NCBI RefSeq assembly: GCF_037975245.1
Contig: NC_092572.1
Location: 5,967,501 to 6,031,500, forward strand
DNA length: 64,000 bases
Direction of reading: 5' to 3'
From: Apostichopus japonicus
Taxonomy: Eukaryota > Echinodermata > Holothuroidea > Aspidochirotida > Stichopodidae
Positions 18,453-64,000 of the stretch are shown in pieces (position 1 is the stretch's first letter; each line of letters begins with the position of its first letter). The position numbers were made by a program, and so were the translations under genes. Below the pieces are notes generated by a model. That model searched no databases. It was not told where the DNA came from and was given only the letters and a program-made list of their open reading frames with translations.

Positions 18453-18499
<47 letters not shown>

Positions 18500-29579: not shown

Positions 29580-29668
29580 TGCACTGTTAAAAAAAATTCT
29601 GTTAAAATACAGAATTTCTCTGGCAGCAGAGTTTCCAGGAAATGTCTGTTATTTCCAACTGCAGATAA

Positions 29669-30290
29669 TCTATGTAAAATAAACAGTCTAAAACTGTTAT
29701 TAATACAGTTTATTTCTTTCATTATAACAGTTTTTGTCCGTAAACTTACTGTACGACGACCGTTATTTTACACCATATTCTATGTAAAATAAACAGTCTG
29801 AAACTGTTATTTATACAGTTTTTTCCCCCAATTATAACAGTTTCTGTCCGTAAAATTACTGTACGTCAACCGTTATTTTACACCATATTCTATGTAAAAT
29901 AAACAGTCTGAAACTGTTATTTACACAGTTTTCCCCCCAATTATAACAGTTTCTGTCCGTAAAATCACTGTACGTCAACCGTTATTTTACACCATATTCT
30001 ATGTAAAATAAACAGTTTAAACTGTTATTATACAGTTTTTATTTTGCATTATAAAAGTCTTTGTCCGTAAAATTACTGTACGACGACCGTAATTTTACAC
30101 TGAATTCTATGTTAAATACACAGTATGAGAGCGTAATTCATACAGTTTTTCTTTGCATTATAAAAGTTTTCATCCGTAAATTACTATATGATAGCCGTTA
30201 TTTTACACTACATTCTATGTAAAATAAAGTCTGAAATGGTTATTTACACAGTTTTTCTTGAAATACAGTATGTCTTTTTCTCTGTAAAAT
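29669..30290. repeat. Outer subterminal array, left copy
   Basis: About six units of roughly 110 bp starting at TCTATGTAAAATAAACAG (29669, 29779, 29889, 29998, then more diverged). Each holds short AACTGTTAT and TTACTGTACG-like motifs. These are likely transposase-binding sites at the element's 3' end. Confidence 0.85.
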
Positions 30291-31801
30291 AACTGTATTG
30301 TGACTTTTAATTTACTGTATCTTTTAGGTAAAGTCTAGTCTTTAATGTTATCTATAGTCTTTTTCCTTGCAATAAATAGGTCTTTGTCTGTAAAATTGGC
30401 TGTCAGATGGAATTACTATTATCAGTGAGATTATAAAATAAAAAACAACTTATTGTTCTCTGAAACTTTTATTTACAACTTTAAAACTTGTTGAAACATA
30501 TTTTTGAACGTCAAAACCTTAAAAGTAATATATAAGACTGAACATCATAAGGCAATCTCTTATTGATGGCTGGGAATTTGCTGGGTGCCCCAGCCTTTCT
30601 TTTGGAAAAGGTTTTGTTATACAGACGATACTTTCATTGTTTGGAAATATACTGATAAGTCTGTATGTGGCCATATTTGTCTCTTCGGCCACTTCAGGAA
30701 ATCCTGGATCAGCCACTGAAAGTTTTCACAATTGACTGATCATAAAACACTAAGCTTTGACACCTGCTAGTTCCTGGCCCTTTCATTGCTCTACAACAAA
30801 GTTCCTTTCCCTCTTATTTACAGATGCACTTGAAGTATGCAAAGTTCACTCAAGGTCACTGTATTATGTGACCACAGAAACTTAGGTGTCTTCACTATTC
30901 TTCACTTAACTTTATTACAACTATGTTCATTTCATGTATTTTTAAATGTTCTAGCAGTATTAAATATATCGCTCATATACCATATTCACTTTAATGGGCA
31001 TATCAATGTTCACAGAAAATTAATACCTGTAACTGTGGTAACTCCTCTATTGCTGATAAGGATTGTATACTTTTTCTAATTTTCGTGACCTTCTTTAGCC
31101 CTTAAAGTTCAAAGTGGAAGTTAAAGACAAGGATATGTTACAATAGGTAAGAATAAAGATTAACTAATCTGTTAACCAAAGATATTGTAAATCATCTGAT
31201 CAAAAGATATATAAACAATGATTTGACCTTTGTACCCGTAAATGATTAAAAAAGTTGTCCTTATATTCCTGTGCTTCTGCTTGAGTGGAAGGAGCAGTTT
31301 TATGAAAAGATTTCATGTTAAAATTTAGCATAGAGATTTTATATTTTGACAACAAAATATAATTTAGATATCAAGCTTATAGCATTAACAAAATGAACAG
31401 AATGACTTGACATCTGAAACTATTATGGATTCAAAACTTTTCTAACATTTGTGAACCTGCTTGGAAGAGTTTCAGAGTTTATGGAGTTATTGGAAAGGTG
31501 TCATAATAGCACCAAATAATAGTCTGTAACAAGTTTGTCAACAAGTAAAACCTTGTAAATATCCACCAACAAAGTTAAACACAATAGTTTGAACTCTGTA
31601 TAAATGTTTAACTGTTCATTTGTAAATGAGACTTCTCTGTAGCTGGAGAGTCAATGGTTCCAGTTAAGGAGGCTCAAGAGGCTCGCTAACATTTTCTCAA
31701 CTAGGAACACCTTAAATCAACTAAGTGACCTAGATTTATAATTCAACGTTACCAAATTGTCAGACTAATGTGACGAATCATGGGAAGTGCCTGAAAAGCA
31801 T

Positions 31802-34800
31802 TTAGACTGTCCAATCTGACTCAAATTCTTTCAGGTTTCCAACCAAAGCCAAAATTTTTGGGTTGACAGGATAGCTCTTCTTGGATTTGGGGGTCTTTCT
31901 TCCCTTTTCTGGATTCAATCCAACAAAGCAGCTGCAAAGAGGAGCAAAAATTAGAACTGTGAAATCATAAAGTTCAAATAAGTTAGCAATTATTAAACCA
32001 TTTAACAATTAATTTCCTTTGGTCTCAAATTTACACTACAGTATGACATACATGATAGTAAGATATGGTCAAAATATGTGATGTGACACAACTCAGTTTC
32101 CAATTGTATGTGTGCTCACTGGTGTTGATAGAAGCAATTGAGATGGCTACCTGTCTTAATTTACAAGCCTTTGGAATTCAACAGTTTTCTAGGAAATCAT
32201 GATCTGAAAAGAAGAGCTAATTTGTGAATCCTCTTTTAATTTCAATTTTGTTCAGTTTAAGCTGATACCCTATAGTTGTAACAAATTGTGAAGGTGTTCT
32301 CAGTAATTAACCAAACTCATACATTCCCACCCTTCTCCAAAATAATAAAACATGCCATTCAACTATTTACACTAACTTTCCATTGGTGAAAATTATGTAA
32401 AGGTCATCAATGTTTACAAAAGGTTACCAAAGCTGCTGTTATTCTTGGACCACAACAAACAGTACAAAATAAGTAAATCAGCTGTAACTGAGAACAGAGT
32501 ATGATTTATTTCAATGATCTGCCCAGGAGTTGAGTTAACTGCAATTTGTTGATTTTTTTTCTATATTGGTACCTTTATGATCGGCTGATCTTTGGAAGGT
32601 GGCTAATAATATGCATACACTCTTACATTCCATGTCAAGGGAATGCCCACACAAAATAACAATGGTTAACTATTACTAGGGTACTTTCAGCCTACTCACC
32701 GCTGGATAAACTCCATTAAAGTTGCACCTTCAGATGGATGCTCAATGTTTTAGATGAAAAACATTGCAAACAGCATGATCATTGCACTTTCAAAAGTTTG
32801 AATGTGGTCATTAACAATAACCATATCTACTGCCAACATAAACTTTCTTCCAGTGTACATGTTTGGACCTGCAAAAAATAAATATCAATTAGAACTATTA
32901 AGAGAATGTTCATTTAAAGTTAATGCCACTGCTACCACTACTTAACAGTTGCAGCGTGAATATACTCCAACTCGCGTGTACTAATGGGTCATTATTTTTT
33001 ATTCAATATTATTTTTACCGGTATTCAAGGTTTGCTTCGGATGTATTTCGATATATTCGTTGATGGCAGATTTCATTTTTGTCGGTGTGGATATGAAAGA
33101 AAAAACGGTTTATCTGATATATCGATTTACTGAGGCACCCTAGATCAGCAACACAAAAATGACATTGAAAATGTTGCAATGGTCAACCAAAATGTTTTTA
33201 CCACATATGAAGTAAAAAATGGGCTATAGTTCTTGAGTTTCATGTTACATGCTGAGCATCAAATGCACACATACATGCTGAATTGATGCTGTAACAGAGT
33301 TTTCCCAGTTAAATCTCAGATTGACCCATGACTTTGTCTTCCACAGGTGATAGTGCACTATGAGGTGTCATTGACACACTTGCCAACATATAACTTCCTA
33401 GGTTTCTTTAATCAAAGATTCTCAAATTTTGACCACTGTTGATTCAAGTGACCACACCTACATACCACATGAGATCTGTCCAAGATTCCCTTCTTGAGAT
33501 ATCATGTTTACAAAGTATTCACAGTTTCACCTCTGTTGACCCCAAATGATCTTTGACCTTTGCCAAAAACAATAGGCTTCTTGTACTCTATCGGGTACAC
33601 CCACATGCCAACTATGAAATCTATCTAAGCTTCCTTTCATGAGAAATTGTGTTTACAAGGTAGGCATCAGTAAAATACATACACACGCACAAATACTCAC
33701 CATCACAAATTTCAAAGGTTACAACTATCATCCAAACCAAAAAGGGGAAAAAGAGCAGTGTATATGTACTGGAGGAAATGCATATTAGAGCAAAATCCTC
33801 CAAATGCTTCTCACCTTGAATAATGATGCATGGGAATGTTGACTTCAGATCCTTAGTAATATTCTGCACAGTACTGGTTTCCTGAACATAATGTAAATGT
33901 AGGAACATTAAAATTGTTTGGAATACTTATCTTATTATGTGGGACAAAACATTCAAGATGCCATCTGGGAAAACAGTAGTATCTTCCAAAGCATAACATA
34001 AAATAAATGAAACTGAGGGACAATATGCATCCCTGAAATCAAAATGATGACAATGGGGAAGATCTTAATCAACTGATGGCATATGATGTACTGAACTTTG
34101 GACTTCAGAGTCCCAATACACAACAATTACAGCTGACCTACAAACAGTGAACATCGCAGAGGAAAATCGTTATAAAGTCAATCAACTTGACCAATACATC
34201 TACATAACTGTAAGTGTAAGAACGACAAACCAGAGAAAAACACAGACAAATAGTGCTATTCTGATAGTGCTAGTTCACAAATAGTGCTAGTTCACAAGCT
34301 TAATGATTTATAAAGGTAGCTTCTTCTTACCTTTGCAAGGTAGAAAAGATCATCCCATTTATCTCCAAGGTGATTGCAGAGGAGGAGGAGAATAAGTCCT
34401 GGAACATCAGGGGAATGATCACCACTTTCCTTCTTAGCACTCTCCACATCAGCTATTATATTTTGCACCTCCTTCTTCTTCTTTGCTGACACTTGCAGAA
34501 ACTTCTGAATTCAACTGATTTCAGTTTGATGCCCACTAAATCTTCAAAATGTCCCATCATCCCAACCTCCTCAAACAAGAAAGGATATTCATCAAGGAGA
34601 GCACATACAGGAACTTGCTGACTGTTTATCTTGGCACGGATGGTTGGAAATACATTTTTCATGAGGAAAACAAACTCATTGTCATCCCATATGTTAAGTT
34701 CATGCATCACCTTTAAGTCATCTGTCTTTTTTCTCTGCGTGTCTCAATCCTCCCCTTCAGGTAGGTCCTCTGGTTGCCAGTTTTTGCAGCCATATGAGGT

Positions 34801-36701
34801 GCTGAGTTTACGCTTCTTTGTTAGTGCTTCATTCTGTTCACCCTCTACAAACAGGGGGTAACCAACATTTAGGTGAAATTTGCCTCTATTGAGATTGCTC
34901 ATACGGTTTTCCAACTGTGTAAGAAGGGATGCATATCCACTACCAACAACAAGTCCTTCAATGTCATCTTTAAAGGGTTCTGGAAACTCACGAACGATCT
35001 TCTGTGCAATAATAGAAAGGTGCTTTCGTCCTGGACTTGACTCAACTTTCATTATATATGTCATTGCATAATATTCTGATCATTTCACGCCGATCTTTGG
35101 GAGTGGGTCTCTGTTTCTTCTGGAGTGATTTTGTGAGGCTTTTAGGCATTTTATCCCAATCAACTTTAAATGACTCTGCCCAATCTGCAATTACCACTGC
35201 TGGACTTGATCCTGCTGAACTGGGCACCCAGCTGCATCCTGGTGAACTGGCCACAGAGTCGGGTTCAGATGATTGTGAAGATGCTGATCCAAGCAACTTT
35301 TCTTTAAGAATGAAAATATGTCACATCAATGAAAGTAGATTATATGAAATGAATAAACATCCTTGATAAATTATTTCCTGATAACAGACATATATTGCAT
35401 TAAGGTACTAGTTTTTTGGACACTCACAGAACACAATAAACACAATAAAATAACATAATATACACAATAAACAGGGGCAGCACTCAAGCTCTCAATCTAT
35501 CGAATCAAGCATATCTTCAATTGGCAACAGGGGCATTCTCTGACAGGTCTGTTTCGGTTAAGTCGCTGCTTGTTTGTTGACGTAGGCAATGGCTTTGTAC
35601 ACATGTACACACCGTACCGTATGCCATATGGACCTTGTGCATAAGCATCGGACAAGGCGTGCTTCATAGTTTGTTAAGTTGTTGAGGTGTATTCTTATAC
35701 TGTATGGAAAGCAAGCCATTGCCACAGTTCCCTGCATCTTTCAATCAGTATAGCCAAAGTGTGAAATTATTGGGGCAATTTTTGTTGATTATTGGTATAC
35801 AAGTGTTTTTGGGGCAAAGTAACACTCACACATATCAAATTGTTGAGTCCATGGCGATATTTGGTCACTGCAGACGTTTGCGTAGTGCCCGCTTATTTGG
35901 ACCCCAAAGTGGGGGCAAGGATGATCCCAGAGTAGAGGTACTGTACCCCATACTAACCCATAGTGGTTGTTTTTCAAGGTGACCTTTAGCCTTGTCATAC
36001 TCTCATATGAACTTCAACATACTCTACAAACAACATAGAACGTACGTTCTATGTTTAATTTGAATTGAAAATAAGGGTTTCCTCTTTTCTTGTTGATAAA
36101 TATTTTAGTTTGGGTATGTGGTGTATCATTTCATTAGTTTGACCTGGTGTTTTCTATTTGCTCACTACTTGAAAACTGCTTAAAAAAAAGTTCAAATCTA
36201 ATGTATAATACTAATAATTAACCCAGAAAATTTTCTTTAGAGAATTACAAAAATGCTAATGATGTACTATGAGACCAGTTTCCTTATTCAATTTGTGGTA
36301 CCAGCAACTGTCTTAGACAATAAGAGAAACTTCTGTGTATCACATGTACTTACTATTTAGAAATGTTTCCATCTCCTCTTGTAACTTACTTCTTAACCTC
36401 CCCTTTCACCTCTCCATTCCTCAAAAAAAGGAGGATAATCATATTTAGAAAGTGCAATTATATTTCTGCTTACCTGCCTTGTTTGCCCATGCTATTAACA
36501 GCTTTCTCCTCTGTATTGGCTTCAGTACACTGGAAAGGTCCTCATCAGTGATCAGCTTGAGATCGCACACACTTTCCACACCAGCAGCTGTTCAACTACT
36601 TTGTCCACCATTTCAAGTGGCAGTGAAGGAAGATGCTGCATTATGGATAAAGCAAAATCTTCAAGACAAATTGTATCATCTGATTGTTCTGACACGCTCA
36701 T
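31802..36701 (-). pseudogene. CACTA accessory gene, decayed, left copy
   Basis: Mirror of 48214-53113. Exons: 36701-36474, 35301-34331, 33881-33815, 32868-32700, 31931-31802. It carries the same frame breaks and stops as the right copy. Confidence 0.75.
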
Positions 36702-36744
36702 TTTAACAAGAGAACCTCAGACCTGAGTAATGGAAGTGAAGGTT

Positions 36745-39432
36745 TTAGTTCCTTCTCAATTCAGAATAATTCATATGCCACATTTGCTTACTATAAGTTT
36801 CTTTGTAAGGCCCATTATATACTCCTAGTTGTTCCATAATTGAGCTAGCACTCAAACATAGTTCTTTTTGGCTTTCAACAACTACAAACAAAATGCAACC
36901 CAATTTAAGACTTGAAAAGCATGTATCAGAACACTGACATATTACAAAGAAACCCTTCTGGTAAGAAGTGCCAAACATCTTAACTCTGTCACTGATAACA
37001 GAATCATCAAACTTTGCATTTGCTGCCTGCAAAGCATGCTTTATTTCAGGCATGAAGCATTCTATATTGAGGGATGTGGCATTTTCAATAACCAATCTAT
37101 CAGGATATATTTTCCCTGAGCTGTTATAAGCTTGAAAGTACTGGTGTTGATTTGCTAAAGACTGTGTAACATTGATGAAATTTTGTGCAGATCTGGCACA
37201 ACGTTTGAAATAGGAGTGCTTACTTTCGAAGCATAGAGTCCACACTCTCATTAATGGTCCAAACTTAATAATTAAATCTGGATAGTGGCTCAGGAAATGA
37301 TGTTTTGGTCTGAAGGGAGTATCAGCAAAGAGTTGTTTTCTCTCAGTCAAGTATTCCTCCATTATCACCCTTAAATATGCAAGTTGCTCATGTGAAATCT
37401 TTGGAGAACACACATACTCAACAACTTCTCGTAAAAGAAGAAAGAGTCTCCATACAAGGTCATTATGATCTTTAACATATGCACTCAAAATAATTGGAAG
37501 AAGTCTCAAAAGGTTCCAGTTTTCAACGGCTTGACCACCTAAGCGGTTACCTGATAAATTTACAAATGCAGGTTTATTGTTTGCATCGCGTCCTTGAAAT
37601 TTAAACTGTACCATCGCGTCCTTGAAATTTAAACTGTACCAACATTATATTCAAATCTGCATATGTGAACCAATGTTTTTGTTTAATCCAGTATTGAATA
37701 AACATGGCTACATTGTAATCAACAACTCCTTCAAACAAGTCGTGCCCCAGGCATGGTGGCAAACCAGGTGCACACACATGAAAATACCTCAAAGAATTAA
37801 AACATGAATTAAATTTAATTCCTTGATGATGATTTTCTTCATGATCTTCAAGGTGTGCAATGCAAGAATCATACTCCTCCTTGGTTCTAGGCTTCCCAAC
37901 AGCATATGGTGCGTTACATTTAAAGTCATGTGAAGTTATTAAACAGTAGCGGCACATGTTAGTTCCTGAAAAACTCTCAATGAAACCCCAATACAATGGG
38001 AACCTAAATTATCCCCTAATATACAAGACAGCGCACCTTTCCAGACCACCCCGTCACTTGTTTCTATTCCAACTTCCTCTAATGTTTTCAAATCATTTAT
38101 CACTCTCTCAAAAACCTTCTGCTGCCCAAAGACCTTAAAATCAACTTCTTTACAAAAAAACACAAGCTGCATTGCATCAACAACAGATCTGTACTCAGGT
38201 TGGGTGTTTCCAAGTGTAAAGTACATTGCTAGTATTTTGTGTTTTATTCTTGCCGACCCAAGTGGGTTTACAATTTCAAATGAGTCTTCATAGAGAATGA
38301 TGGACAAAGATCTTTCACAACTTTGAAACAAACTATTTTTTTTAAAAACTGTATCATCCACTATGTCAGTAAGAACAGATGAGTCTTCACTGTGATGCCT
38401 ACTTTGACATTGTCCCAACACAAAATCATCCGAAAGGAGCAATTGAATGCTCTCCTTGATTGGAATGTAATGATAGTATTGCATTTTTTGTGCTGAATCT
38501 CTCCCTAGTGATATTGCAATTGGAGCAACAAACTTGAATGCTGATTTATAGTAAATTACTCTTTTCTACAGTGCTGCGCCTGAGTTTTCCTTTACAACTA
38601 TAGCAATCCATGCATCTATCTCATTCATATAATCGGCTACACATTTGATACGTTCTTCTGCTAAACCCTCATCTCTCAATTTTTGAGTAATTTTCAAAAC
38701 CTGATCTTGTTGACATAAACTGTGAATAGTTTGAAGCTCCTCAACAATCATTTGAATTGTTTGTGATGGAACAAGTTGTTTTGCCTGAAGTTTCAGAAGA
38801 AACAAGGCAAAATTTTGTTGAAATTGAAGCCTAGACTGACCTGTTTCTTGCACCCTACCTTGGCAATTGTTACTGTTTTCGAAATCACAGCTTATGTCAT
38901 TTTCAATGACAAATCTATCAGTCTCTGTAGACACATCAAAGCAGTTAGTGTCTAGAGGTATATCTTGATCCAAAGAGCAATGATCACGAGTAGAAAGTTT
39001 GTATTTATCCAAAATGTTTACAGCTCACCAGTTTCTGTGACGTGACAAATGTGCTGTAAATGAACTGGTTTTTGAAAAATCTCTTTTGCACTTCTTATAT
39101 GGACAAGATACAACTTGTCCTTTTCTAATATGTGCTTTTAAGTGTGCCAAATATGAGGACAGATCTGTGAGTTCTTTTTGACAGATTTCATACATACAAA
39201 TCAATGACAGGTTAACTGACTGAAGTTTTGCTGCAACTGCTGTTTGCTTTTGAATATGGCGGTGATACCTAGTCACATGAATCTTCATTGCAGCAAAAGT
39301 TGATAGGGTATAGCCACAATTAACAAAACAACATGGAAATCTCACTCGAGGTATATTCCTATGGGAACTCACATGATCAACATAGCCACGGATAGTAGCT
39401 GTTAGTGTATTGCATATTTTACAGGTGTACAT
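36745..39432 (-). pseudogene. CACTA transposase pseudogene, left copy
   Basis: Same gene as 45483-48170, in mirror position. The N-terminal four C2H2 fingers occupy 39025-39432 and the transposase core 36745-38484. Lesions: TGA at 39025-39027, TAG at 38566-38568, a one-base loss in a C/G run near 37986-37989, and a 28-bp tandem duplication at 37585-37640. All four are shared with the right copy. See the right copy for domain details. Confidence 0.85.
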
Positions 39433-40079
39433 TTCTGCCCTGCTTCACTATTGATAATTTGAAAGAGACATGAATTATGCCTTTTCAAATTCAGCCATGT
39501 TCTAAAAGTCTAATTAACCTTGGCTAATCTAAAGACTGCATATTACATGCCAGATGAGAGCCAATATCATCCATGTATGCAGGCTACCAGCACCAATTAA
39601 CTTACAAGTTACAATGTACCCACCCTTAAATCATATTAACCTAAACAACATGAAGCAAGGCTAAGCTTCACACGCACATATCAAAATGCACGGTAGGGTG
39701 ACGATAGGTAGTCTAATACAGCGCCAGTGTTACTATAGTGATAGTCTAACTCTTAATTATCGTTCGTCTGGTCTACGTTATATAGGCAAACTAACGGTAG
39801 TACTAGGCTAGGCCCTACGGTAAGAACTAAAATATAAACTAACTTTTTGTTATGACAGGCTTTCAAAGTTGTTTTGTTGATTATGATAATACAAATGTGG
39901 CATATGGTTAAAATAAATTTACCACTCACGTCTGACGAAGTACTCAATGAAGTCCTGTTCTGGTGTGGAAATGTGCGTAGCCTACTGGACAGCAACGGCA
40001 GTTGTTTTCCTCTCGTGTAGACGTACTTTGAAGCGCTGTAGTATTGTATTGTGCAATCTATACACTTCATACGTACGTT

Positions 40080-40330
40080 AATGCGAGATGCGATCAATCA
40101 TAATGTACAGAACAGCGCAGCATGTACTGGACGTTCTGACATCGCGCGCCAACTTGGGTCATGTGACTGCATGCTGGACTGTAGCCAAGTTTTCCGGGAA
40201 AGCCAACGGCAGCCGCCCAGAATGTATCAAAAGAATTCCCGCCTGTGCGCGAGACGTCATAGCTGTTACAGACACGTTGACGCCAATCATCGAGTTAGAC
40301 CGGCTGGGTCGAATGGGAGGAGGGGTTGAA
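40080..40330 (-). promoter_or_regulatory. Possible CACTA promoter region, left copy (mirror 44585-44835)
   Basis: A GC- and CpG-rich island (GCGCGCCAACTTGG, CCGCCC-like stretches) lies 0.65-0.9 kb before the transposase ATG, upstream of the possible 5' UTR intron, in otherwise AT-rich DNA. A promoter is inferred from position and composition only. Confidence 0.35.
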
Positions 40331-41099
40331 GGGGGGTGGGCGGTTCAGATGAATGAAATGACATTTACTGTACTAGACATATTTAACAACATTTTGATAC
40401 GTTCGGTGACCCATTTAGCTATAAATAGCTGCATGTGTGTGACCCAGTGATCGTACATTGAGCACACGGAATTGTCATCGGTTCATGTTTTACTGACAAT
40501 ACAAGTTAACATAAAACAACAATAAATTAGACTACATCTTGAAGGCTGGGCATTGTATTCTTGGCAGCTCACAGCAGTTATTGTTTTGATAGGATTTCGG
40601 AAGTTGTATACTCCTTAAACAAACGGTAAACCAATTGGAACAGTACCATCTATTGTAAAATTATGTTTTCATTAGTTAACACGTTAGGCATTTACAAATA
40701 ATTCGTTTCTAAAACTCTAAATGGTTAGATTTCACATATTTGACCTACAGACCCTTCAAAGTTACCTTTCACATTGGTTTCGTTCGCTGGATAATTAAGG
40801 GTCATTGATGAGCCTCACGGGGTTGGGGGTTGTTGCTCAAATGTAACACTAAGGCAGAAAACGACTGTAGGGACAAAGTTAACTGGTAATTGTGGGTTGG
40901 ATCATGGAGCTATCGGTAATAGCTTCATGGTTGGATTTCATTCTTTTCTTTGCCAAACGGTAATGTTACTGCACAATGGATTTTGTTGTATACCATTGTA
41001 TATTGGTAACGTGTTCCACCTTCAAGTATATTTTCGTATAACACTCTTCAAATTCCAATTTACATGCATTAGATTGCAAAAAAAAAAAAAAAAAAAACT

Positions 41100-41500
41100 T
41101 ATTCTGTAAAGTACATGACACATATAACGTCTGTAAAAATCACATAAGTTTACATGTAACTGACATATTCTGGAAAATTTTACAGAATTATCCTGTAAAT
41201 TTTCAGTGGAGGGAAAAATACTACAATTTTTTGTAAACCACTTGCTGTAACATAAAACGTCTGTAAAAATCACAGAATTTTACATGTAAATATTAAAAAC
41301 TGACATATTCTGGAAAATTTTACAGGATTTTCCTGTAAATTTTCTTTGGAGGGAAAAATACTACAATTTTGTGTAAACCACTTGCTGTACAGAAAACGTC
41401 TGTTAAAATAACAGACGTTTACATGTAAATATAGAAAACCGGCTTTTTCTGTAAAAATCGACAGGAATTAACTGTAAATTTACAGAAATTTTTAACAGTG
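41100..41500. repeat. Inner subterminal array and TIR, left copy
   Basis: About three units of 115-135 bp sharing AAACGTCTGT, TACATGTAA, TTTTCCTGTAAATTTTC-like phrases and CCACTTGCTGTA, ending at the CAGTG terminus. The units differ from the outer array, so the two ends of the element are structurally distinct. Confidence 0.85.
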
Positions 41501-41502
41501 TG

Positions 41503-43411
41503 ACTGACACTGACCGTATCGTTGAAGAGAAGCGCGAGGGGGAGGGGGGGGGGGGGATTTTCTGGCTCTAACTGGCTCCAATTTTCTGTCGGAATTTTCA
41601 GGCTCCGAAACCCATCCAGTTGGAATTTCAGCCACTACACCCCCTCAATCACCAGGCCTTAGCTACGTCCCTGTGTGGCTTACTCATTATTACATAACTT
41701 ATTGTTTTGGGTGGCGGTCAAAGGTCCAAATGTCAAATTATCAAAGTGTTTTATCTTGAGGACTTTACCTTCAAAAGAGATTATATATGCATGGTAGATT
41801 ACCCAAATGTAAAAAGTAAAATTTCTCCAAAATTTGGTATATGTGAAAGCCCATGTAAGGTTTGCGGTCAAAACCTACGAAAAAGGTAAGGTCTAAACGC
41901 AGATGTTGATTTGACTTCCCCATATTTAGTAGAACCTCCTTACTGTTTTAAGTGGAGATCAAAGATCGACTTAGGTATATGCGGTATGAACTTCAGCCAT
42001 GGTTCGCCTGCGAACTACTCTTGTGCTGTATATGTTAGGCTACGTATTTAAAGGCAAGGAATCCTCTGTAGGAATTAACCTCTGGTTATAACACCGCACT
42101 TCATGTAAAAATGCTATTTATAGAGCGTTTTCGCTGAATGAGTAACAAGCGGAGAGTATCGCACAAAGGCAGGAGAAAGAACAACAAGTGAGGTCAAATA
42201 TGTTGGTGTTAATTCCAACTCAACGATGTTTTCCACTCGAGTACCTACTCCACCTCATAAAGGGATCATTTCATCGGAAATAAATCTTATTCTCACATTT
42301 GATATTTGTTGGTTATTCGTGTGGTCTGAAATCAACAACGTGCAGGGTTTGTTTCCTTTCTTGCTGACAAAGAGACCGATTTATACAAAATGAGAGAAAA
42401 ATAGAACGGATCATGCAAACCTTAACCAACCAAGAAATATGACTACTGTAGTGTGTGTCAACTTAAGAAGCACATCTTTCATGCCGAAACTGACATTTAA
42501 AACGCCGAAATTTTAAAAGAAATATACATCTTAGAACTCAATCTTTTTCAACTTTTTACCGACGATCACTTCAGCGGTTGATGTATCGAATTTTGTTCTT
42601 ATTTCATTTTAAATTACCACAGCAATTTCCGTTCTTTTATTATATCGGCTAGCAAAGTTTCATCTCGAACAGTGACAAGAAAAGGTCAAGAATTAAATTG
42701 ACGTGTGTTAAATGTTTTCATCTTCTATAAAATTGCCCCGAATTTCAATGTAACCCTCTTGTTTGAATTTCTGTTCGAGTACATTAAAAAAGAATGCTAA
42801 AAGCTCCTTACCCATTTAATTTTTTTCATAGAAAACCTAATAATAGATGTTTCAAGTTTTTGTTCAAAGTTCAAACCGTGGGGCCAGAGAGTCGGGTATT
42901 ATCAGACTTTTATCAAATGAGCTTCATTTTATGGATAAAACCGCACAATCCTTTTGAACATGTAAAAAGTATATTTGGACGATGGTTGGTCCTCGTTGTG
43001 TATTTTTACTTTTCTAAAATTGAATCCTTATATAACAATGTACCGGTACAGCCAACCAATACCGCGCATGTCTCCCACAAATACTAAATTACTTATTAAA
43101 TATTTTTGATGGTAAAAATAAAACAATCACATTTTCGGAGAACGGAAATTATTTGCTTGAAGAAAAAAATAAAATTGAATACATTTGACAATCTGAGTTA
43201 TTTTTTTCTGTTCCAACGTGATTGACAAATTACGATGCAAATATAATTAAGTAATACTATCCCTACGACTAGTTACGATGCAATACACCTAACGAAACCA
43301 GCGATTAATAACCTTATTATTTCCATATAACTGAAGTAAGTATATACATACCTCCTCTGAAGATAAAAAAGTAATTACACAGGTAATGACAATAATCATC
43401 ATGGCGATTAC
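41503..43411. other. Spacer between the two CACTA copies
   Basis: Unique sequence of 1.9 kb with no convincing gene. A G-rich tract (41545-41557) and a short end-like phrase TAGCTACGTCCCTG at about 41660, as in some hAT MITE ends, suggest a fragment of another element. The longest open stretch (42794-43087) has no family pattern. Confidence 0.55.
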
Positions 43412-43413
43412 CA

Positions 43414-43814
43414 CACTGTTAAAAATTTCTGTAAATTTACAGTTAATTCCTGTCGATTTTTACAGAAAAAGCCGGTTTTCTATATTTACATGTAAACGTC
43501 TGTTATTTTAACAGACGTTTTCTGTACAGCAAGTGGTTTACACAAAATTGTAGTATTTTTCCCTCCAAAGAAAATTTACAGGAAAATCCTGTAAAATTTT
43601 CCAGAATATGTCAGTTTTTAATATTTACATGTAAAATTCTGTGATTTTTACAGACGTTTTATGTTACAGCAAGTGGTTTACAAAAAATTGTAGTATTTTT
43701 CCCTCCACTGAAAATTTACAGGATAATTCTGTAAAATTTTCCAGAATATGTCAGTTACATGTAAACTTATGTGATTTTTACAGACGTTATATGTGTCATG
43801 TACTTTACAGAATA
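43414..43814. repeat. Inner subterminal array and TIR, right copy
   Basis: Mirror of 41100-41500; begins at CACTGTTAAAAATTTCTG. Confidence 0.85.
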
Positions 43815-45482
43815 AGTTTTTTTTTTTTTTTTTTTTTGCAATCTAATGCATGTAAATTGGAATTTGAAGAGTGTTATACGAAAATATACTTGAAGGTGGA
43901 ACACGTTACCAATATACAATGGTATACAACAAAATCCATTGTGCAGTAACATTACCGTTTGGCAAAGAAAAGAATGAAATCCAACCATGAAGCTATTACC
44001 GATAGCTCCATGATCCAACCCACAATTACCAGTTAACTTTGTCCCTACAGTCGTTTTCTGCCTTAGTGTTACATTTGAGCAACAACCCCCAACCCCGTGA
44101 GGCTCATCAATGACCCTTAATTATCCAGCGAACGAAACCAATGTGAAAGGTAACTTTGAAGGGTCTGTAGGTCAAATATGTGAAATCTAACCATTTAGAG
44201 TTTTAGAAACGAATTATTTGTAAATGCCTAACGTGTTAACTAATGAAAACATAATTTTACAATAGATGGTACTGTTCCAATTGGTTTACCGTTTGTTTAA
44301 GGAGTATACAACTTCCGAAATCCTATCAAAACAATAACTGCTGTGAGCTGCCAAGAATACAATGCCCAGCCTTCAAGATGTAGTCTAATTTATTGTTGTT
44401 TTATGTTAACTTGTATTGTCAGTAAAACATGAACCGATGACAATTCCGTGTGCTCAATGTACGATCACTGGGTCACACACATGCAGCTATTTATAGCTAA
44501 ATGGGTCACCGAACGTATCAAAATGTTGTTAAATATGTCTAGTACAGTAAATGTCATTTCATTCATCTGAACCGCCCACCCCCCTTCAACCCCTCCTCCC
44601 ATTCGACCCAGCCGGTCTAACTCGATGATTGGCGTCAACGTGTCTGTAACAGCTATGACGTCTCGCGCACAGGCGGGAATTCTTTTGATACATTCTGGGC
44701 GGCTGCCGTTGGCTTTCCCGGAAAACTTGGCTACAGTCCAGCATGCAGTCACATGACCCAAGTTGGCGCGCGATGTCAGAACGTCCAGTACATGCTGCGC
44801 TGTTCTGTACATTATGATTGATCGCATCTCGCATTAACGTACGTATGAAGTGTATAGATTGCACAATACAATACTACAGCGCTTCAAAGTACGTCTACAC
44901 GAGAGGAAAACAACTGCCGTTGCTGTCCAGTAGGCTACGCACATTTCCACACCAGAACAGGACTTCATTGAGTACTTCGTCAGACGTGAGTGGTAAATTT
45001 ATTTTAACCATATGCCACATTTGTATTATCATAATCAACAAAACAACTTTGAAAGCCTGTCATAACAAAAAGTTAGTTTATATTTTAGTTCTTACCGTAG
45101 GGCCTAGCCTAGTACTACCGTTAGTTTGCCTATATAACGTAGACCAGACGAACGATAATTAAGAGTTAGACTATCACTATAGTAACACTGGCGCTGTATT
45201 AGACTACCTATCGTCACCCTACCGTGCATTTTGATATGTGCGTGTGAAGCTTAGCCTTGCTTCATGTTGTTTAGGTTAATATGATTTAAGGGTGGGTACA
45301 TTGTAACTTGTAAGTTAATTGGTGCTGGTAGCCTGCATACATGGATGATATTGGCTCTCATCTGGCATGTAATATGCAGTCTTTAGATTAGCCAAGGTTA
45401 ATTAGACTTTTAGAACATGGCTGAATTTGAAAAGGCATAATTCATGTCTCTTTCAAATTATCAATAGTGAAGCAGGGCAGAA

Positions 45483-48170
45483 ATGTACACCTGTAAAATA
45501 TGCAATACACTAACAGCTACTATCCGTGGCTATGTTGATCATGTGAGTTCCCATAGGAATATACCTCGAGTGAGATTTCCATGTTGTTTTGTTAATTGTG
45601 GCTATACCCTATCAACTTTTGCTGCAATGAAGATTCATGTGACTAGGTATCACCGCCATATTCAAAAGCAAACAGCAGTTGCAGCAAAACTTCAGTCAGT
45701 TAACCTGTCATTGATTTGTATGTATGAAATCTGTCAAAAAGAACTCACAGATCTGTCCTCATATTTGGCACACTTAAAAGCACATATTAGAAAAGGACAA
45801 GTTGTATCTTGTCCATATAAGAAGTGCAAAAGAGATTTTTCAAAAACCAGTTCATTTACAGCACATTTGTCACGTCACAGAAACTGGTGAGCTTTAAACA
45901 TTTTGGATAAATACAAACTTTCTACTCGTGATCATTGCTCTTTGGATCAAGATATACCTCTAGACACTAACTGCTTTGATGTGTCTACAGAGACTGATAG
46001 ATTTGTCATTGAAAATGACATAAGCTGTGATTTCGAAAACAGTAACAATTGCCAAGGTAGGGTGCAAGAAACAGGTCAGTCTAGGCTTCAATTTCAACAA
46101 AATTTTGCCTTGTTTCTTCTGAAACTTCAGGCAAAACAACTTGTTCCATCACAAACAATTCAAATGATTGTTGAGGAGCTTCAAACTATTCACAGTTTAT
46201 GTCAACAAGATCAGGTTTTGAAAATTACTCAAAAATTGAGAGATGAGGGTTTAGCAGAAGAACGTATCAAATGTGTAGCCGATTATATGAATGAGATAGA
46301 TGCATGGATTGCTATAGTTGTAAAGGAAAACTCAGGCGCAGCACTGTAGAAAAGAGTAATTTACTATAAATCAGCATTCAAGTTTGTTGCTCCAATTGCA
46401 ATATCACTAGGGAGAGATTCAGCACAAAAAATGCAATACTATCATTACATTCCAATCAAGGAGAGCATTCAATTGCTCCTTTCGGATGATTTTGTGTTGG
46501 GACAATGTCAAAGTAGGCATCACAGTGAAGACTCATCTGTTCTTACTGACATAGTGGATGATACAGTTTTTAAAAAAAATAGTTTGTTTCAAAGTTGTGA
46601 AAGATCTTTGTCCATCATTCTCTATGAAGACTCATTTGAAATTGTAAACCCACTTGGGTCGGCAAGAATAAAACACAAAATACTAGCAATGTACTTTACA
46701 CTTGGAAACACCCAACCTGAGTACAGATCTGTTGTTGATGCAATGCAGCTTGTGTTTTTTTGTAAAGAAGTTGATTTTAAGGTCTTTGGGCAGCAGAAGG
46801 TTTTTGAGAGAGTGATAAATGATTTGAAAACATTAGAGGAAGTTGGAATAGAAACAAGTGACGGGGTGGTCTGGAAAGGTGCGCTGTCTTGTATATTAGG
46901 GGATAATTTAGGTTCCCATTGTATTGGGGTTTCATTGAGAGTTTTTCAGGAACTAACATGTGCCGCTACTGTTTAATAACTTCACATGACTTTAAATGTA
47001 ACGCACCATATGCTGTTGGGAAGCCTAGAACCAAGGAGGAGTATGATTCTTGCATTGCACACCTTGAAGATCATGAAGAAAATCATCATCAAGGAATTAA
47101 ATTTAATTCATGTTTTAATTCTTTGAGGTATTTTCATGTGTGTGCACCTGGTTTGCCACCATGCCTGGGGCACGACTTGTTTGAAGGAGTTGTTGATTAC
47201 AATGTAGCCATGTTTATTCAATACTGGATTAAACAAAAACATTGGTTCACATATGCAGATTTGAATATAATGTTGGTACAGTTTAAATTTCAAGGACGCG
47301 ATGGTACAGTTTAAATTTCAAGGACGCGATGCAAACAATAAACCTGCATTTGTAAATTTATCAGGTAACCGCTTAGGTGGTCAAGCCGTTGAAAACTGGA
47401 ACCTTTTGAGACTTCTTCCAATTATTTTGAGTGCATATGTTAAAGATCATAATGACCTTGTATGGAGACTCTTTCTTCTTTTACGAGAAGTTGTTGAGTA
47501 TGTGTGTTCTCCAAAGATTTCACATGAGCAACTTGCATATTTAAGGGTGATAATGGAGGAATACTTGACTGAGAGAAAACAACTCTTTGCTGATACTCCC
47601 TTCAGACCAAAACATCATTTCCTGAGCCACTATCCAGATTTAATTATTAAGTTTGGACCATTAATGAGAGTGTGGACTCTATGCTTCGAAAGTAAGCACT
47701 CCTATTTCAAACGTTGTGCCAGATCTGCACAAAATTTCATCAATGTTACACAGTCTTTAGCAAATCAACACCAGTACTTTCAAGCTTATAACAGCTCAGG
47801 GAAAATATATCCTGATAGATTGGTTATTGAAAATGCCACATCCCTCAATATAGAATGCTTCATGCCTGAAATAAAGCATGCTTTGCAGGCAGCAAATGCA
47901 AAGTTTGATGATTCTGTTATCAGTGACAGAGTTAAGATGTTTGGCACTTCTTACCAGAAGGGTTTCTTTGTAATATGTCAGTGTTCTGATACATGCTTTT
48001 CAAGTCTTAAATTGGGTTGCATTTTGTTTGTAGTTGTTGAAAGCCAAAAAGAACTATGTTTGAGTGCAAGCTCAATTATGGAACAACTAGGAGTATATAA
48101 TGGGCCTTACAAAGAAACTTATAGTAAGCAAATGTGGCATATGAATTATTCTGAATTGAGAAGGAACTAA
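45483..48170 (+). pseudogene. CACTA transposase pseudogene with C2H2 fingers, right copy
   Basis: The ATG at 45483 starts MYTCKIC and four C2H2 fingers of C-x2/4-C-x12-H-x3/4-H spacing, ending SFTAHLSRHRNW. The same frame runs on past TGA (45888-45890) and TAG (46347-46349) into FKFVAPIAISLGRDS and YHYIPIKESIQLL. A one-base loss in GGGG (46926-46929) moves the frame to GFIESFSGTNMCRYCLI and then PPCLGHDLFEGVV. A 28-bp tandem duplication (47275-47302 repeated at 47303-47330) shifts it back to NRLGGQAVENWNLLRLLP, then PKHHFLSHYPD, GPLMRVWTLCFESKHSYFK and the stop at 48170. The GP-x2-R-x-W-x3-FE-x6-K pattern resembles the C-terminal region of plant TNP2-type CACTA transposases, as recalled. Without the four lesions the frame would cover about 900 codons. 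A possible 5' UTR intron runs from 44986 (CAGAC|GTGAGT) to 45467. Confidence 0.85.
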
Positions 48171-48213
48171 AACCTTCACTTCCATTACTCAGGTCTGAGG
48201 TTCTCTTGTTAAA

Positions 48214-51200
48214 ATGAGCGTGTCAGAACAATCAGATGATACAATTTGTCTTGAAGATTTTGCTTTATCCATAATGCAGCATCTTCCTTCACTGCCACTT
48301 GAAATGGTGGACAAAGTAGTTGAACAGCTGCTGGTGTGGAAAGTGTGTGCGATCTCAAGCTGATCACTGATGAGGACCTTTCCAGTGTACTGAAGCCAAT
48401 ACAGAGGAGAAAGCTGTTAATAGCATGGGCAAACAAGGCAGGTAAGCAGAAATATAATTGCACTTTCTAAATATGATTATCCTCCTTTTTTTGAGGAATG
48501 GAGAGGTGAAAGGGGAGGTTAAGAAGTAAGTTACAAGAGGAGATGGAAACATTTCTAAATAGTAAGTACATGTGATACACAGAAGTTTCTCTTATTGTCT
48601 AAGACAGTTGCTGGTACCACAAATTGAATAAGGAAACTGGTCTCATAGTACATCATTAGCATTTTTGTAATTCTCTAAAGAAAATTTTCTGGGTTAATTA
48701 TTAGTATTATACATTAGATTTGAACTTTTTTTTAAGCAGTTTTCAAGTAGTGAGCAAATAGAAAACACCAGGTCAAACTAATGAAATGATACACCACATA
48801 CCCAAACTAAAATATTTATCAACAAGAAAAGAGGAAACCCTTATTTTCAATTCAAATTAAACATAGAACGTACGTTCTATGTTGTTTGTAGAGTATGTTG
48901 AAGTTCATATGAGAGTATGACAAGGCTAAAGGTCACCTTGAAAAACAACCACTATGGGTTAGTATGGGGTACAGTACCTCTACTCTGGGATCATCCTTGC
49001 CCCCACTTTGGGGTCCAAATAAGCGGGCACTACGCAAACGTCTGCAGTGACCAAATATCGCCATGGACTCAACAATTTGATATGTGTGAGTGTTACTTTG
49101 CCCCAAAAACACTTGTATACCAATAATCAACAAAAATTGCCCCAATAATTTCACACTTTGGCTATACTGATTGAAAGATGCAGGGAACTGTGGCAATGGC
49201 TTGCTTTCCATACAGTATAAGAATACACCTCAACAACTTAACAAACTATGAAGCACGCCTTGTCCGATGCTTATGCACAAGGTCCATATGGCATACGGTA
49301 CGGTGTGTACATGTGTACAAAGCCATTGCCTACGTCAACAAACAAGCAGCGACTTAACCGAAACAGACCTGTCAGAGAATGCCCCTGTTGCCAATTGAAG
49401 ATATGCTTGATTCGATAGATTGAGAGCTTGAGTGCTGCCCCTGTTTATTGTGTATATTATGTTATTTTATTGTGTTTATTGTGTTCTGTGAGTGTCCAAA
49501 AAACTAGTACCTTAATGCAATATATGTCTGTTATCAGGAAATAATTTATCAAGGATGTTTATTCATTTCATATAATCTACTTTCATTGATGTGACATATT
49601 TTCATTCTTAAAGAAAAGTTGCTTGGATCAGCATCTTCACAATCATCTGAACCCGACTCTGTGGCCAGTTCACCAGGATGCAGCTGGGTGCCCAGTTCAG
49701 CAGGATCAAGTCCAGCAGTGGTAATTGCAGATTGGGCAGAGTCATTTAAAGTTGATTGGGATAAAATGCCTAAAAGCCTCACAAAATCACTCCAGAAGAA
49801 ACAGAGACCCACTCCCAAAGATCGGCGTGAAATGATCAGAATATTATGCAATGACATATATAATGAAAGTTGAGTCAAGTCCAGGACGAAAGCACCTTTC
49901 TATTATTGCACAGAAGATCGTTCGTGAGTTTCCAGAACCCTTTAAAGATGACATTGAAGGACTTGTTGTTGGTAGTGGATATGCATCCCTTCTTACACAG
50001 TTGGAAAACCGTATGAGCAATCTCAATAGAGGCAAATTTCACCTAAATGTTGGTTACCCCCTGTTTGTAGAGGGTGAACAGAATGAAGCACTAACAAAGA
50101 AGCGTAAACTCAGCACCTCATATGGCTGCAAAAACTGGCAACCAGAGGACCTACCTGAAGGGGAGGATTGAGACACGCAGAGAAAAAAGACAGATGACTT
50201 AAAGGTGATGCATGAACTTAACATATGGGATGACAATGAGTTTGTTTTCCTCATGAAAAATGTATTTCCAACCATCCGTGCCAAGATAAACAGTCAGCAA
50301 GTTCCTGTATGTGCTCTCCTTGATGAATATCCTTTCTTGTTTGAGGAGGTTGGGATGATGGGACATTTTGAAGATTTAGTGGGCATCAAACTGAAATCAG
50401 TTGAATTCAGAAGTTTCTGCAAGTGTCAGCAAAGAAGAAGAAGGAGGTGCAAAATATAATAGCTGATGTGGAGAGTGCTAAGAAGGAAAGTGGTGATCAT
50501 TCCCCTGATGTTCCAGGACTTATTCTCCTCCTCCTCTGCAATCACCTTGGAGATAAATGGGATGATCTTTTCTACCTTGCAAAGGTAAGAAGAAGCTACC
50601 TTTATAAATCATTAAGCTTGTGAACTAGCACTATTTGTGAACTAGCACTATCAGAATAGCACTATTTGTCTGTGTTTTTCTCTGGTTTGTCGTTCTTACA
50701 CTTACAGTTATGTAGATGTATTGGTCAAGTTGATTGACTTTATAACGATTTTCCTCTGCGATGTTCACTGTTTGTAGGTCAGCTGTAATTGTTGTGTATT
50801 GGGACTCTGAAGTCCAAAGTTCAGTACATCATATGCCATCAGTTGATTAAGATCTTCCCCATTGTCATCATTTTGATTTCAGGGATGCATATTGTCCCTC
50901 AGTTTCATTTATTTTATGTTATGCTTTGGAAGATACTACTGTTTTCCCAGATGGCATCTTGAATGTTTTGTCCCACATAATAAGATAAGTATTCCAAACA
51001 ATTTTAATGTTCCTACATTTACATTATGTTCAGGAAACCAGTACTGTGCAGAATATTACTAAGGATCTGAAGTCAACATTCCCATGCATCATTATTCAAG
51101 GTGAGAAGCATTTGGAGGATTTTGCTCTAATATGCATTTCCTCCAGTACATATACACTGCTCTTTTTCCCCTTTTTGGTTTGGATGATAGTTGTAACCTT

Positions 51201-53113
51201 TGAAATTTGTGATGGTGAGTATTTGTGCGTGTGTATGTATTTTACTGATGCCTACCTTGTAAACACAATTTCTCATGAAAGGAAGCTTAGATAGATTTCA
51301 TAGTTGGCATGTGGGTGTACCCGATAGAGTACAAGAAGCCTATTGTTTTTGGCAAAGGTCAAAGATCATTTGGGGTCAACAGAGGTGAAACTGTGAATAC
51401 TTTGTAAACATGATATCTCAAGAAGGGAATCTTGGACAGATCTCATGTGGTATGTAGGTGTGGTCACTTGAATCAACAGTGGTCAAAATTTGAGAATCTT
51501 TGATTAAAGAAACCTAGGAAGTTATATGTTGGCAAGTGTGTCAATGACACCTCATAGTGCACTATCACCTGTGGAAGACAAAGTCATGGGTCAATCTGAG
51601 ATTTAACTGGGAAAACTCTGTTACAGCATCAATTCAGCATGTATGTGTGCATTTGATGCTCAGCATGTAACATGAAACTCAAGAACTATAGCCCATTTTT
51701 TACTTCATATGTGGTAAAAACATTTTGGTTGACCATTGCAACATTTTCAATGTCATTTTTGTGTTGCTGATCTAGGGTGCCTCAGTAAATCGATATATCA
51801 GATAAACCGTTTTTTCTTTCATATCCACACCGACAAAAATGAAATCTGCCATCAACGAATATATCGAAATACATCCGAAGCAAACCTTGAATACCGGTAA
51901 AAATAATATTGAATAAAAAATAATGACCCATTAGTACACGCGAGTTGGAGTATATTCACGCTGCAACTGTTAAGTAGTGGTAGCAGTGGCATTAACTTTA
52001 AATGAACATTCTCTTAATAGTTCTAATTGATATTTATTTTTTGCAGGTCCAAACATGTACACTGGAAGAAAGTTTATGTTGGCAGTAGATATGGTTATTG
52101 TTAATGACCACATTCAAACTTTTGAAAGTGCAATGATCATGCTGTTTGCAATGTTTTTCATCTAAAACATTGAGCATCCATCTGAAGGTGCAACTTTAAT
52201 GGAGTTTATCCAGCGGTGAGTAGGCTGAAAGTACCCTAGTAATAGTTAACCATTGTTATTTTGTGTGGGCATTCCCTTGACATGGAATGTAAGAGTGTAT
52301 GCATATTATTAGCCACCTTCCAAAGATCAGCCGATCATAAAGGTACCAATATAGAAAAAAAATCAACAAATTGCAGTTAACTCAACTCCTGGGCAGATCA
52401 TTGAAATAAATCATACTCTGTTCTCAGTTACAGCTGATTTACTTATTTTGTACTGTTTGTTGTGGTCCAAGAATAACAGCAGCTTTGGTAACCTTTTGTA
52501 AACATTGATGACCTTTACATAATTTTCACCAATGGAAAGTTAGTGTAAATAGTTGAATGGCATGTTTTATTATTTTGGAGAAGGGTGGGAATGTATGAGT
52601 TTGGTTAATTACTGAGAACACCTTCACAATTTGTTACAACTATAGGGTATCAGCTTAAACTGAACAAAATTGAAATTAAAAGAGGATTCACAAATTAGCT
52701 CTTCTTTTCAGATCATGATTTCCTAGAAAACTGTTGAATTCCAAAGGCTTGTAAATTAAGACAGGTAGCCATCTCAATTGCTTCTATCAACACCAGTGAG
52801 CACACATACAATTGGAAACTGAGTTGTGTCACATCACATATTTTGACCATATCTTACTATCATGTATGTCATACTGTAGTGTAAATTTGAGACCAAAGGA
52901 AATTAATTGTTAAATGGTTTAATAATTGCTAACTTATTTGAACTTTATGATTTCACAGTTCTAATTTTTGCTCCTCTTTGCAGCTGCTTTGTTGGATTGA
53001 ATCCAGAAAAGGGAAGAAAGACCCCCAAATCCAAGAAGAGCTATCCTGTCAACCCAAAAATTTTGGCTTTGGTTGGAAACCTGAAAGAATTTGAGTCAGA
53101 TTGGACAGTCTAA
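48214..53113 (+). pseudogene. CACTA accessory gene, five exons, decayed, right copy
   Basis: Starts 44 bp after the transposase stop: ATG 48214 (MSVSEQSDD). Exons 48214-48441, 49614-50584, 51034-51100, 52047-52215, 52984-53113 join in phase with GT/AG borders, ending CFVGLNPEKGRK and EFESDWTV. Exon 1 ends with a SAM-like helical stretch (DLKLITDEDLSSVLKPIQRR). Exon 2 has PTPKDRREMIRIL, IIAQKIVREFPEPF and GSGYASLLTQLENR. Exon 4 has LAVDMVIVNDHI. This arrangement recalls uncharacterised animal proteins found beside such transposases; its role (possibly a TnpA-like binding factor) is inference. Lesions: frame breaks near 48325, 49860 and 50415, TGA 50169-50171, TAA 52162-52164. Splice sites remain intact. 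Confidence 0.75.
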
Positions 53114-54624
53114 ATGCTTTTCAGGCACTTCCCATGATTCGTCACATTAGTCTGACAATTTGGTAACGTTGAATTATAAATCTAGGTCACTTAGTTGATT
53201 TAAGGTGTTCCTAGTTGAGAAAATGTTAGCGAGCCTCTTGAGCCTCCTTAACTGGAACCATTGACTCTCCAGCTACAGAGAAGTCTCATTTACAAATGAA
53301 CAGTTAAACATTTATACAGAGTTCAAACTATTGTGTTTAACTTTGTTGGTGGATATTTACAAGGTTTTACTTGTTGACAAACTTGTTACAGACTATTATT
53401 TGGTGCTATTATGACACCTTTCCAATAACTCCATAAACTCTGAAACTCTTCCAAGCAGGTTCACAAATGTTAGAAAAGTTTTGAATCCATAATAGTTTCA
53501 GATGTCAAGTCATTCTGTTCATTTTGTTAATGCTATAAGCTTGATATCTAAATTATATTTTGTTGTCAAAATATAAAATCTCTATGCTAAATTTTAACAT
53601 GAAATCTTTTCATAAAACTGCTCCTTCCACTCAAGCAGAAGCACAGGAATATAAGGACAACTTTTTTAATCATTTACGGGTACAAAGGTCAAATCATTGT
53701 TTATATTTCTTTTGATCAGATGATTTACAATATCTTTGGTTAACAGATTAGTTAATCTTTATTCTTACCTATTGTAACATATCCTTGTCTTTAACTTCCA
53801 CTTTGAACTTTAAGGGCTAAAGAAGGTCACGAAAATTAGAAAAAGTATACAATCCTTATCAGCAATAGAGGAGTTACCACAGTTACAGGTATTAATTTTC
53901 TGTGAACATTGATATGCCCATTAAAGTGAATATGGTATATGAGCGATATATTTAATACTGCTAGAACATTTAAAAATACATGAAATGAACATAGTTGTAA
54001 TAAAGTTAAGTGAAGAATAGTGAAGACACCTAAGTTTCTGTGGTCACATAATACAGTGACCTTGAGTGAACTTTGCATACTTCAAGTGCATCTGTAAATA
54101 AGAGGGAAAGGAACTTTGTTGTAGAGCAATGAAAGGGCCAGGAACTAGCAGGTGTCAAAGCTTAGTGTTTTATGATCAGTCAATTGTGAAAACTTTCAGT
54201 GGCTGATCCAGGATTTCCTGAAGTGGCCGAAGAGACAAATATGGCCACATACAGACTTATCAGTATATTTCCAAACAATGAAAGTATCGTCTGTATAACA
54301 AAACCTTTTCCAAAAGAAAGGCTGGGGCACCCAGCAAATTCCCAGCCATCAATAAGAGATTGCCTTATGATGTTCAGTCTTATATATTACTTTTAAGGTT
54401 TTGACGTTCAAAAATATGTTTCAACAAGTTTTAAAGTTGTAAATAAAAGTTTCAGAGAACAATAAGTTGTTTTTTATTTTATAATCTCACTGATAATAGT
54501 AATTCCATCTGACAGCCAATTTTACAGACAAAGACCTATTTATTGCAAGGAAAAAGACTATAGATAACATTAAAGACTAGACTTTACCTAAAAGATACAG
54601 TAAATTAAAAGTCACAATACAGTT

Positions 54625-55246
54625 ATTTTACAGAGAAAAAGACATACTGTATTTCAAGAAAAACTGTGTAAATAACCATTTCAGACTTTATTTTACATAG
54701 AATGTAGTGTAAAATAACGGCTATCATATAGTAATTTACGGATGAAAACTTTTATAATGCAAAGAAAAACTGTATGAATTACGCTCTCATACTGTGTATT
54801 TAACATAGAATTCAGTGTAAAATTACGGTCGTCGTACAGTAATTTTACGGACAAAGACTTTTATAATGCAAAATAAAAACTGTATAATAACAGTTTAAAC
54901 TGTTTATTTTACATAGAATATGGTGTAAAATAACGGTTGACGTACAGTGATTTTACGGACAGAAACTGTTATAATTGGGGGGAAAACTGTGTAAATAACA
55001 GTTTCAGACTGTTTATTTTACATAGAATATGGTGTAAAATAACGGTTGACGTACAGTAATTTTACGGACAGAAACTGTTATAATTGGGGGAAAAAACTGT
55101 ATAAATAACAGTTTCAGACTGTTTATTTTACATAGAATATGGTGTAAAATAACGGTCGTCGTACAGTAAGTTTACGGACAAAAACTGTTATAATGAAAGA
55201 AATAAACTGTATTAATAACAGTTTTAGACTGTTTATTTTACATAGA
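54625..55246. repeat. Outer subterminal array, right copy
   Basis: Mirror of 29669-30290, with the same ~110-bp units in reverse orientation. Confidence 0.85.
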
Positions 55247-55636
55247 TTATCTGCAGTTGGAAATAACAGACATTTCCTGGAAACTCTGCTGCCAGAGAAA
55301 TTCTGTATTTTAACAGAATTTTTTTTAACAGTGCAGACACCCCATCTTTCGTGACTGCACTTTTCAAATTTTTTCGATACATTTGTACCACTGGCCCTCA
55401 TCAAAAACTTATTCATCACTCTGGTTAAGCAAGTAAGCAACTGAGTATAAGTTATCTGCTTGAAGACTACTTACTACAAAAGCTATGTTAATGTACAATG
55501 GGGAGACCTTTTTTTTCTTCAACAAATTATATTCGAAGACATAGTGAATTACCCCAAAAAATACAGTGCCTTTTCCTAGGGCGCTTAATATTATTTTCTT
55601 GGGGGGGGGGGTTATCACTCACATGTAAATTTTTTC

Positions 55637-55684
55637 AATTGTTCACTTCATTCCAACTGAGCATTTGGAATGAAGTGAACAATT
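55637..55684. repeat. Hairpin, 20-bp perfect stem
   Basis: AATTGTTCACTTCATTCCAA, an 8-base loop, then its exact complement. The right-arm motif GGAATGAAGTGAACAATT appears again at about 55769-55786, so this is part of a small repeat. Confidence 0.9.
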
Positions 55685-56356: not shown

Positions 56357-56391
56357 GAGTGCGACAGTCAGAAATTCTGACTGTCGCACTC
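56357..56391. repeat. 35-bp perfect palindrome
   Basis: GAGTGCGACAGTCAGAA, a single A, then its exact reverse complement. No tract follows that would mark it as a terminator-like element. Confidence 0.95.
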
Positions 56392-63908: not shown

Positions 63909-64000
63909 CTGAACAACAAAGATTGAGAATCATAACTAAATTAAGTCTTACATGTTGCTGATTAGAGAAAAATTTACACCAAAGCTTAGGACAGGAACTG

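Follow-up and report, generated by a model that had tools for sequence, protein, structure and literature searches.

The window, the whole 64,000-nucleotide stretch that was analysed, corresponds to C12:5967501-6031500 of a single Apostichopus japonicus assembly. When it was compared with itself a sole long inverted repeat was found, in which 29579-41502 matches 55336-43412 over 11,925 columns at 99.966% identity. Each arm is occupied by one complete element that starts with CACTG, ends with CAGTG and carries a perfect 12-bp terminal inverted repeat (Table 1). The initial annotation had placed the arm ends exactly at these termini plus a 2-bp duplication, and matched duplications (TG/TG at one arm, CA/CA at the other) were indeed observed. 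In register, homology between the flanks extends over 3 bp on the outer side (the duplication plus one base) and 2 bp on the inner side; past these bases the flanks agree at scattered positions only (60 compared). In the self-comparison the spacer gave no second match inside the window, and its six-frame translation had no Pfam match with E ≤ 0.01. Read in the element's own frame the four junction dinucleotides are identical, so that a flip of the spacer by recombination between the arms could not be distinguished by them.

Table 1. Features of the inverted pair of elements; positions are those of the window.
Feature	Position	Strand	Description
Element 1 (left arm)	29582-41500	-	11,919 bp, complete, CACTA/EnSpm-type; genes leftward
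Element 2 (right arm), inverted	43414-55333	+	11,920 bp; genes rightward
Spacer	41503-43411		1,909 bp
Element 1, outer target-site duplication (TG)	29580-29581		Pairs with 41501-41502
Element 1, inner target-site duplication (TG)	41501-41502
Element 2, inner target-site duplication (CA)	43412-43413
Element 2, outer target-site duplication (CA)	55334-55335
Outer ('A') end array, element 1	29665-30256		110-bp unit × 5.4, rich in CTGT/ACAG
Inner ('B') end array, element 1	41158-41485		140-bp unit × 2.4
Inner ('B') end array, element 2	43429-43756		140-bp unit
Outer ('A') end array, element 2	54655-55250		110-bp unit
Gene 1, element 1	36748-39444	-	C2H2 zinc-finger part 39444-39028; DDE transposase part ~38301-36748 (by homology)
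Gene 2, element 1	31820-36591	-	SAM-domain-type; pieces 36582-36487, ~35299-34498, 32881-32699, 31939-31820
Substitutions between arms (arm 1/arm 2)	31208/53707, 36847/48068, 39021/45894
Length difference between arms	41098		1 bp, poly-A

The arms were aligned base by base and differ by three substitutions and a 1-bp length difference in 11,919 aligned bases; the near-perfect 11.9-kb mirror described initially thus stands, and its count of two differences is corrected to these four. The substitution at 36847 is silent in the transposase frame, in which 299 of 299 residues are equal between the arms, and that at 39021 lies approximately 8 bases inside an apparent intron, the splice donor of which is our own reading. 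Two insertions had been proposed at the outset in place of an inverted duplication of host DNA. This holds: both arms have matched 2-bp duplications and unrelated flanks, and of 11 other copies fetched from the same genome (three of them unreadable at one end) the eight whose two ends could both be read all carry matched 2-bp duplications as well. An inverted host duplication was rejected because the flanks differ, and a fold-back artefact was rejected on the same ground.

The assignment of both arms to the CACTA/EnSpm type is supported by their ends and by the transposase. Within the outer 750 bp the tetranucleotide CTGT/ACAG reaches 43 occurrences per kb, and in the final 450 bp, at the B end, 40 per kb. 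Its densities elsewhere are 10.6 (mid-element), 6.3 (spacer) and 7.4 (left flank), so that it is about fourfold denser at both element ends than mid-element. Short repeated motifs near both ends are typical of CACTA elements. The termini have the EnSpm/CACTA form 5'-CAC...GTG-3' with terminal inverted repeats (here CACTG...CAGTG, 12 bp), and the duplication length of 2 bp, common to the arms and the eight readable copies, falls within the 2 to 5 bp described for the clade (PMC12730594). A C(2)C motif is listed for the clade in the same source. When the transposase pieces were aligned with their relatives the order YED, GDNLGSH, CRYC, GHDLFEG was found, and gene 1 would accordingly encode a DDE transposase with C(2)C between the second D and the E, the catalytic residues being assigned by our reading of the sequence. 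For H(3-4)H before the last E, a single H near the E (CLGHDLFEG) was seen by eye in the alignment with relatives. One relative of the transposase has the RAG1/Transib-like fold, the fold of the clade.

Both genes run from the B end to the A end, on the - strand in element 1 and on the + strand in element 2, and both arms are therefore read away from the spacer. A Pfam search with ten element pieces gave matches above the cut-off to C2H2 zinc fingers only (three families, on one of the ten pieces). For the transposase part 48 relatives were obtained at E ≤ 0.001 among 370 candidates; five of the 48 are named by organism (four fish and one brittle star), and the transposase part of P0023 of Merluccius polli covers 70% of the query at 48% identity. 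Gene 2 was recognised by way of the tail of this fish protein. The tail has 234 relatives and, among the 120 listed, those with names are nearly all from fish and two carry a SAM domain in the name. In tblastn, seven selected relatives of the tail (six fish, one frog) align with four distinct regions of the element. The gene 2 pieces themselves gave no Pfam match, and a 95-residue piece had one protein match, unnamed, at 97% identity over 68%. A search of viral contigs produced 142 pattern matches, none of them a relative of the element.

The genes are damaged alike in both arms. Gene 1 is interrupted twice, by a frame change of one base near 37987 and by a tandem duplication of 28 bp (37584-37641); in gene 2, stops fall in frame within the aligned stretches, near 34745 and inside 32881-32699. 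A further in-frame stop at 39025-39027, also in both arms, was considered as damage and rejected, as it reads as a splice donor (GGTGAGC, our reading). In 13 copies, the arms included, the 28-bp unit is present as two exact copies in six and as one in three, while four gave no exact match and were not scored; at the frame site five of the 13 have the form of the arms, seven have the other form and one was unmatched. Since the duplication and the frame change are common to other copies, both breaks are older than the pair. The lineage that carries these two breaks has multiplied, and copies without them exist. With the transposase gene broken before the arms split, the simplest account is that transposase came in trans.

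Further members of the family were sought in the animal's own genome (671.6 Mb, 35 contigs). The 29-bp B end has at least 19 exact matches, the arms included, and at least 19 more with three mismatches; the backward control gave none. Beside the 19 exact B ends, the arms again included, the dinucleotide is TA in 14 cases, CA in four and TG in one. Eleven copies were compared lengthwise with the arms. The nearest, L015, differs from the arms at 37-38 of 10,978 positions and the rest at 52-130: six copies (L011, L012, L014, L016, L018, L021) show 52-66 differences from arm 1 over ~11-11.9 kb, and four (L009, L010, L013, L017) show 118-128 over ~10.4-10.6 kb. The latter four form a subfamily that is 1.1-1.2% from the arms and is without ~1.2 kb (3889-5072 when element positions are counted from the B end). 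Two other copies, on C9 (L005-L006) and C8 (L007-L008), each contain a nested insert of ~4.8 kb; matches between the two inserts do not exceed 22 bp in length, and that on C9 has inverted terminal repeats of ~30 bp.

A tree built from 13 copies groups the two arms as sisters with 100% ultrafast bootstrap, and L015 joins next, also with 100%. Sites private to both arms number ten against 17 other copies, six of which were read over 1.5 kb, and 11 against 11 other copies. In a 52-bp test covering 28 listed copies the arm allele at 35341 was present in two (the arms) and that at 35360 in three (the arms and one copy on C13). Along the 1,071 bp that BLAST aligned, this C13 copy is free of substitutions relative to the arms, and it carries a further arm allele, so it is probably their next relative; in the multiple alignment its first 1,080 bp contain six mismatches, and it departs from the arms at ~1,071. 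Judged on those ~1,071 bp, it may be nearly as close to the arms as they are to each other. At 36847 and 39021 each arm has a private base that is absent from the others read at that site (seven copies at 36847, 11 at 39021). At 31208 arm 2 has the base of L015 and arm 1 that of ten other copies; this is the sole arm difference that does not follow the tree, and a repeat mutation or conversion would explain it.

We consider it likely that the pair was formed by two cut-and-paste insertions of one CACTA/EnSpm-type element, related by a very recent local hop in which an element with an already broken transposase was moved in trans. One arm would have begotten the other by a short-range hop, for example by excision from an already replicated strand followed by insertion ~2 kb away into DNA that was still unreplicated. 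The insertion would have taken place in the opposite orientation, each event leaving its own 2-bp duplication (TG and CA), and the transposase would have been supplied by another copy. Other cut-and-paste elements are described as hopping locally and as moving out of replicated into unreplicated DNA (PMC3878927, PMC3016246). Local hopping would be expected to leave sister copies next to each other; under uniform random placement, which ignores any regional preference, the expected number of such pairs is 0.0005 for 19 copies and 0.002 for 38. Against a hop stands the fact that there is one close pair among at least 19 exact-ended copies. Tip lengths in the tree are ~1.1e-4 to 1.6e-4 for the arms and ~0.9e-3 to 2.6e-3 for the other copies, which would make the arm split roughly ten times younger, unless conversion has reset it.

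Conversion bears directly on this estimate, because it would equally give 99.97% identity and sisterhood; the date is therefore insecure. The pair could instead consist of two older neighbouring insertions whose arms were kept alike by gene conversion, as in the human Y palindromes, where conversion results in arm identity above 99.9% (PMC3723533). In favour of this, the branch common to the arms before their split (~1.0e-3) is similar in length to the tips of the other copies, and the odd site at 31208 could be a trace of conversion. Two closely related insertions within 2 kb would still be needed, however, which random placement does not give, and at two of the three sites where the arms differ neither arm's private base was seen in other copies. 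We regard this origin as rather unlikely, although conversion between the arms may have helped to preserve their identity after a local hop.

The assembly itself might be at fault, with one element drawn twice or a misjoin made through an 11.9-kb repeat. Copies of the family are near identical, the junction dinucleotides are alike in the element frame and an inverted spacer is compatible with them. A fold-back read, however, would mirror the flanks, and these differ; both arms have matched duplications; at 36847 and 39021 each arm carries a base of its own that none of the other copies read there shows; and the contig that carries the pair, C12, is 34.6 Mb in length. An artefact of this kind is thus considered very unlikely. 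A one-step alternative transposition (of the sister-chromatid or reversed-ends type) in place of a standard hop is given hardly any credence: in maize such events are reported to yield inverted duplications and composite insertions (PMC8225341), but the composite insertions described carry flanking genomic DNA (PMC4270019), whereas the window shows no duplication of DNA beyond the elements. The local hop accordingly remains the preferred origin, and the inverted pair is an ordinary outcome for such elements that requires no new kind of system.

The flanks were searched with Pfam in six frames over 1-29578 and on the - strand over 55337-63999. Exons of tyrosine-kinase type were found on the + strand at 7309-8800, pointing toward the palindrome, with one of the two matches below Pfam's cut-off; exons with VWD, C8 and TIL domains were found on the - strand at 58144-62356, likewise pointing toward it. 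The types of these flanking genes, together with the named protein relatives, point to an animal source. Other repeats in the window are a tandem array at 23027-25137 (141-146-bp unit, about eight copies, after which the unit continues in inverted orientation), which forms a small palindromic cluster separate from the main palindrome; a minisatellite at 57946-58136 (40 bp × 4.8); and two repeat copies at 8361-8618 and 18225-18481 that are 89% identical and have TA runs at both ends. As the former of these contains a tRNA match (8467-8539), this repeat looks like a tRNA-derived SINE.

Two consequences had been suggested for the pair. One was that it could move as one composite unit, but both outer ends are of the 110-bp-array type and both inner ends of the 140-bp-array type, and complementary 5' and 3' outer ends, as in a macrotransposon, are not what was found. 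The Ac/fAc composites that were studied in maize have a 5' end at one border and a 3' end at the other (PMC4270019, PMC8225341). With outer ends of the same type two like ends would have to pair, so composite movement is not favoured; each arm could be moved singly, given a supply of transposase. The other was that read-through could yield double-stranded RNA or small RNAs. Because the element genes read away from the spacer this is not favoured either: their own read-through leaves the pair and yields sense RNA only, and a hairpin RNA could arise from the pair solely by transcription that enters from outside. We attach very little probability to the pair acting as a natural trap in an animal, of the kind of the Mu killer locus in maize, in which inward read-through from either flanking gene would run into the 11.9-kb complementary arms; were this so, the hairpin RNA could feed small-RNA silencing of the whole element family.

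Read as a local hop, the locus cleanly captures a transposition made very recently by a CACTA element of an animal. The multiplication of copies whose transposase gene is broken suggests that a source acting in trans is or was active. The long near-perfect inverted arms make it a useful site for testing conversion, spacer inversion and small-RNA silencing. Among the papers listed on inverted pairs of such elements, none names an arrangement like this one for CACTA elements in its title or abstract opening, which is no proof of its absence.

The pair was compared with its nearest known counterparts. ENS1_Cis of Ciona savignyi, as described in PMC6004678, is an EnSpm/CACTA element that likewise has CAC...GTG ends and a 2-bp duplication; it was compared by these two features only, and the present elements have a second, SAM-domain-type gene and a length of 11.9 kb. 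Unnamed elements of fish, represented by P0023 of Merluccius polli, hold both genes in the same order, there within one predicted protein; the comparison with these relatives covers their proteins. Human Y palindrome P6 also has long arms that are more than 99.9% identical (PMC3723533), whereas the arms here are transposons and stop at transposon ends. The Ac/fAc pairs of maize consist, as here, of two nearby cut-and-paste elements, but those composites have a 5' and a 3' border end, while the present pair has one end type outside on both sides (PMC4270019, PMC8225341). Mu killer of maize, for which a partial inverted duplication, a proposed hairpin RNA and silencing are described (PMC3440606), resembles the present locus in holding inverted transposase DNA at one place; it differs in being a partial duplication, whereas here two complete elements each carry their own target-site duplication.
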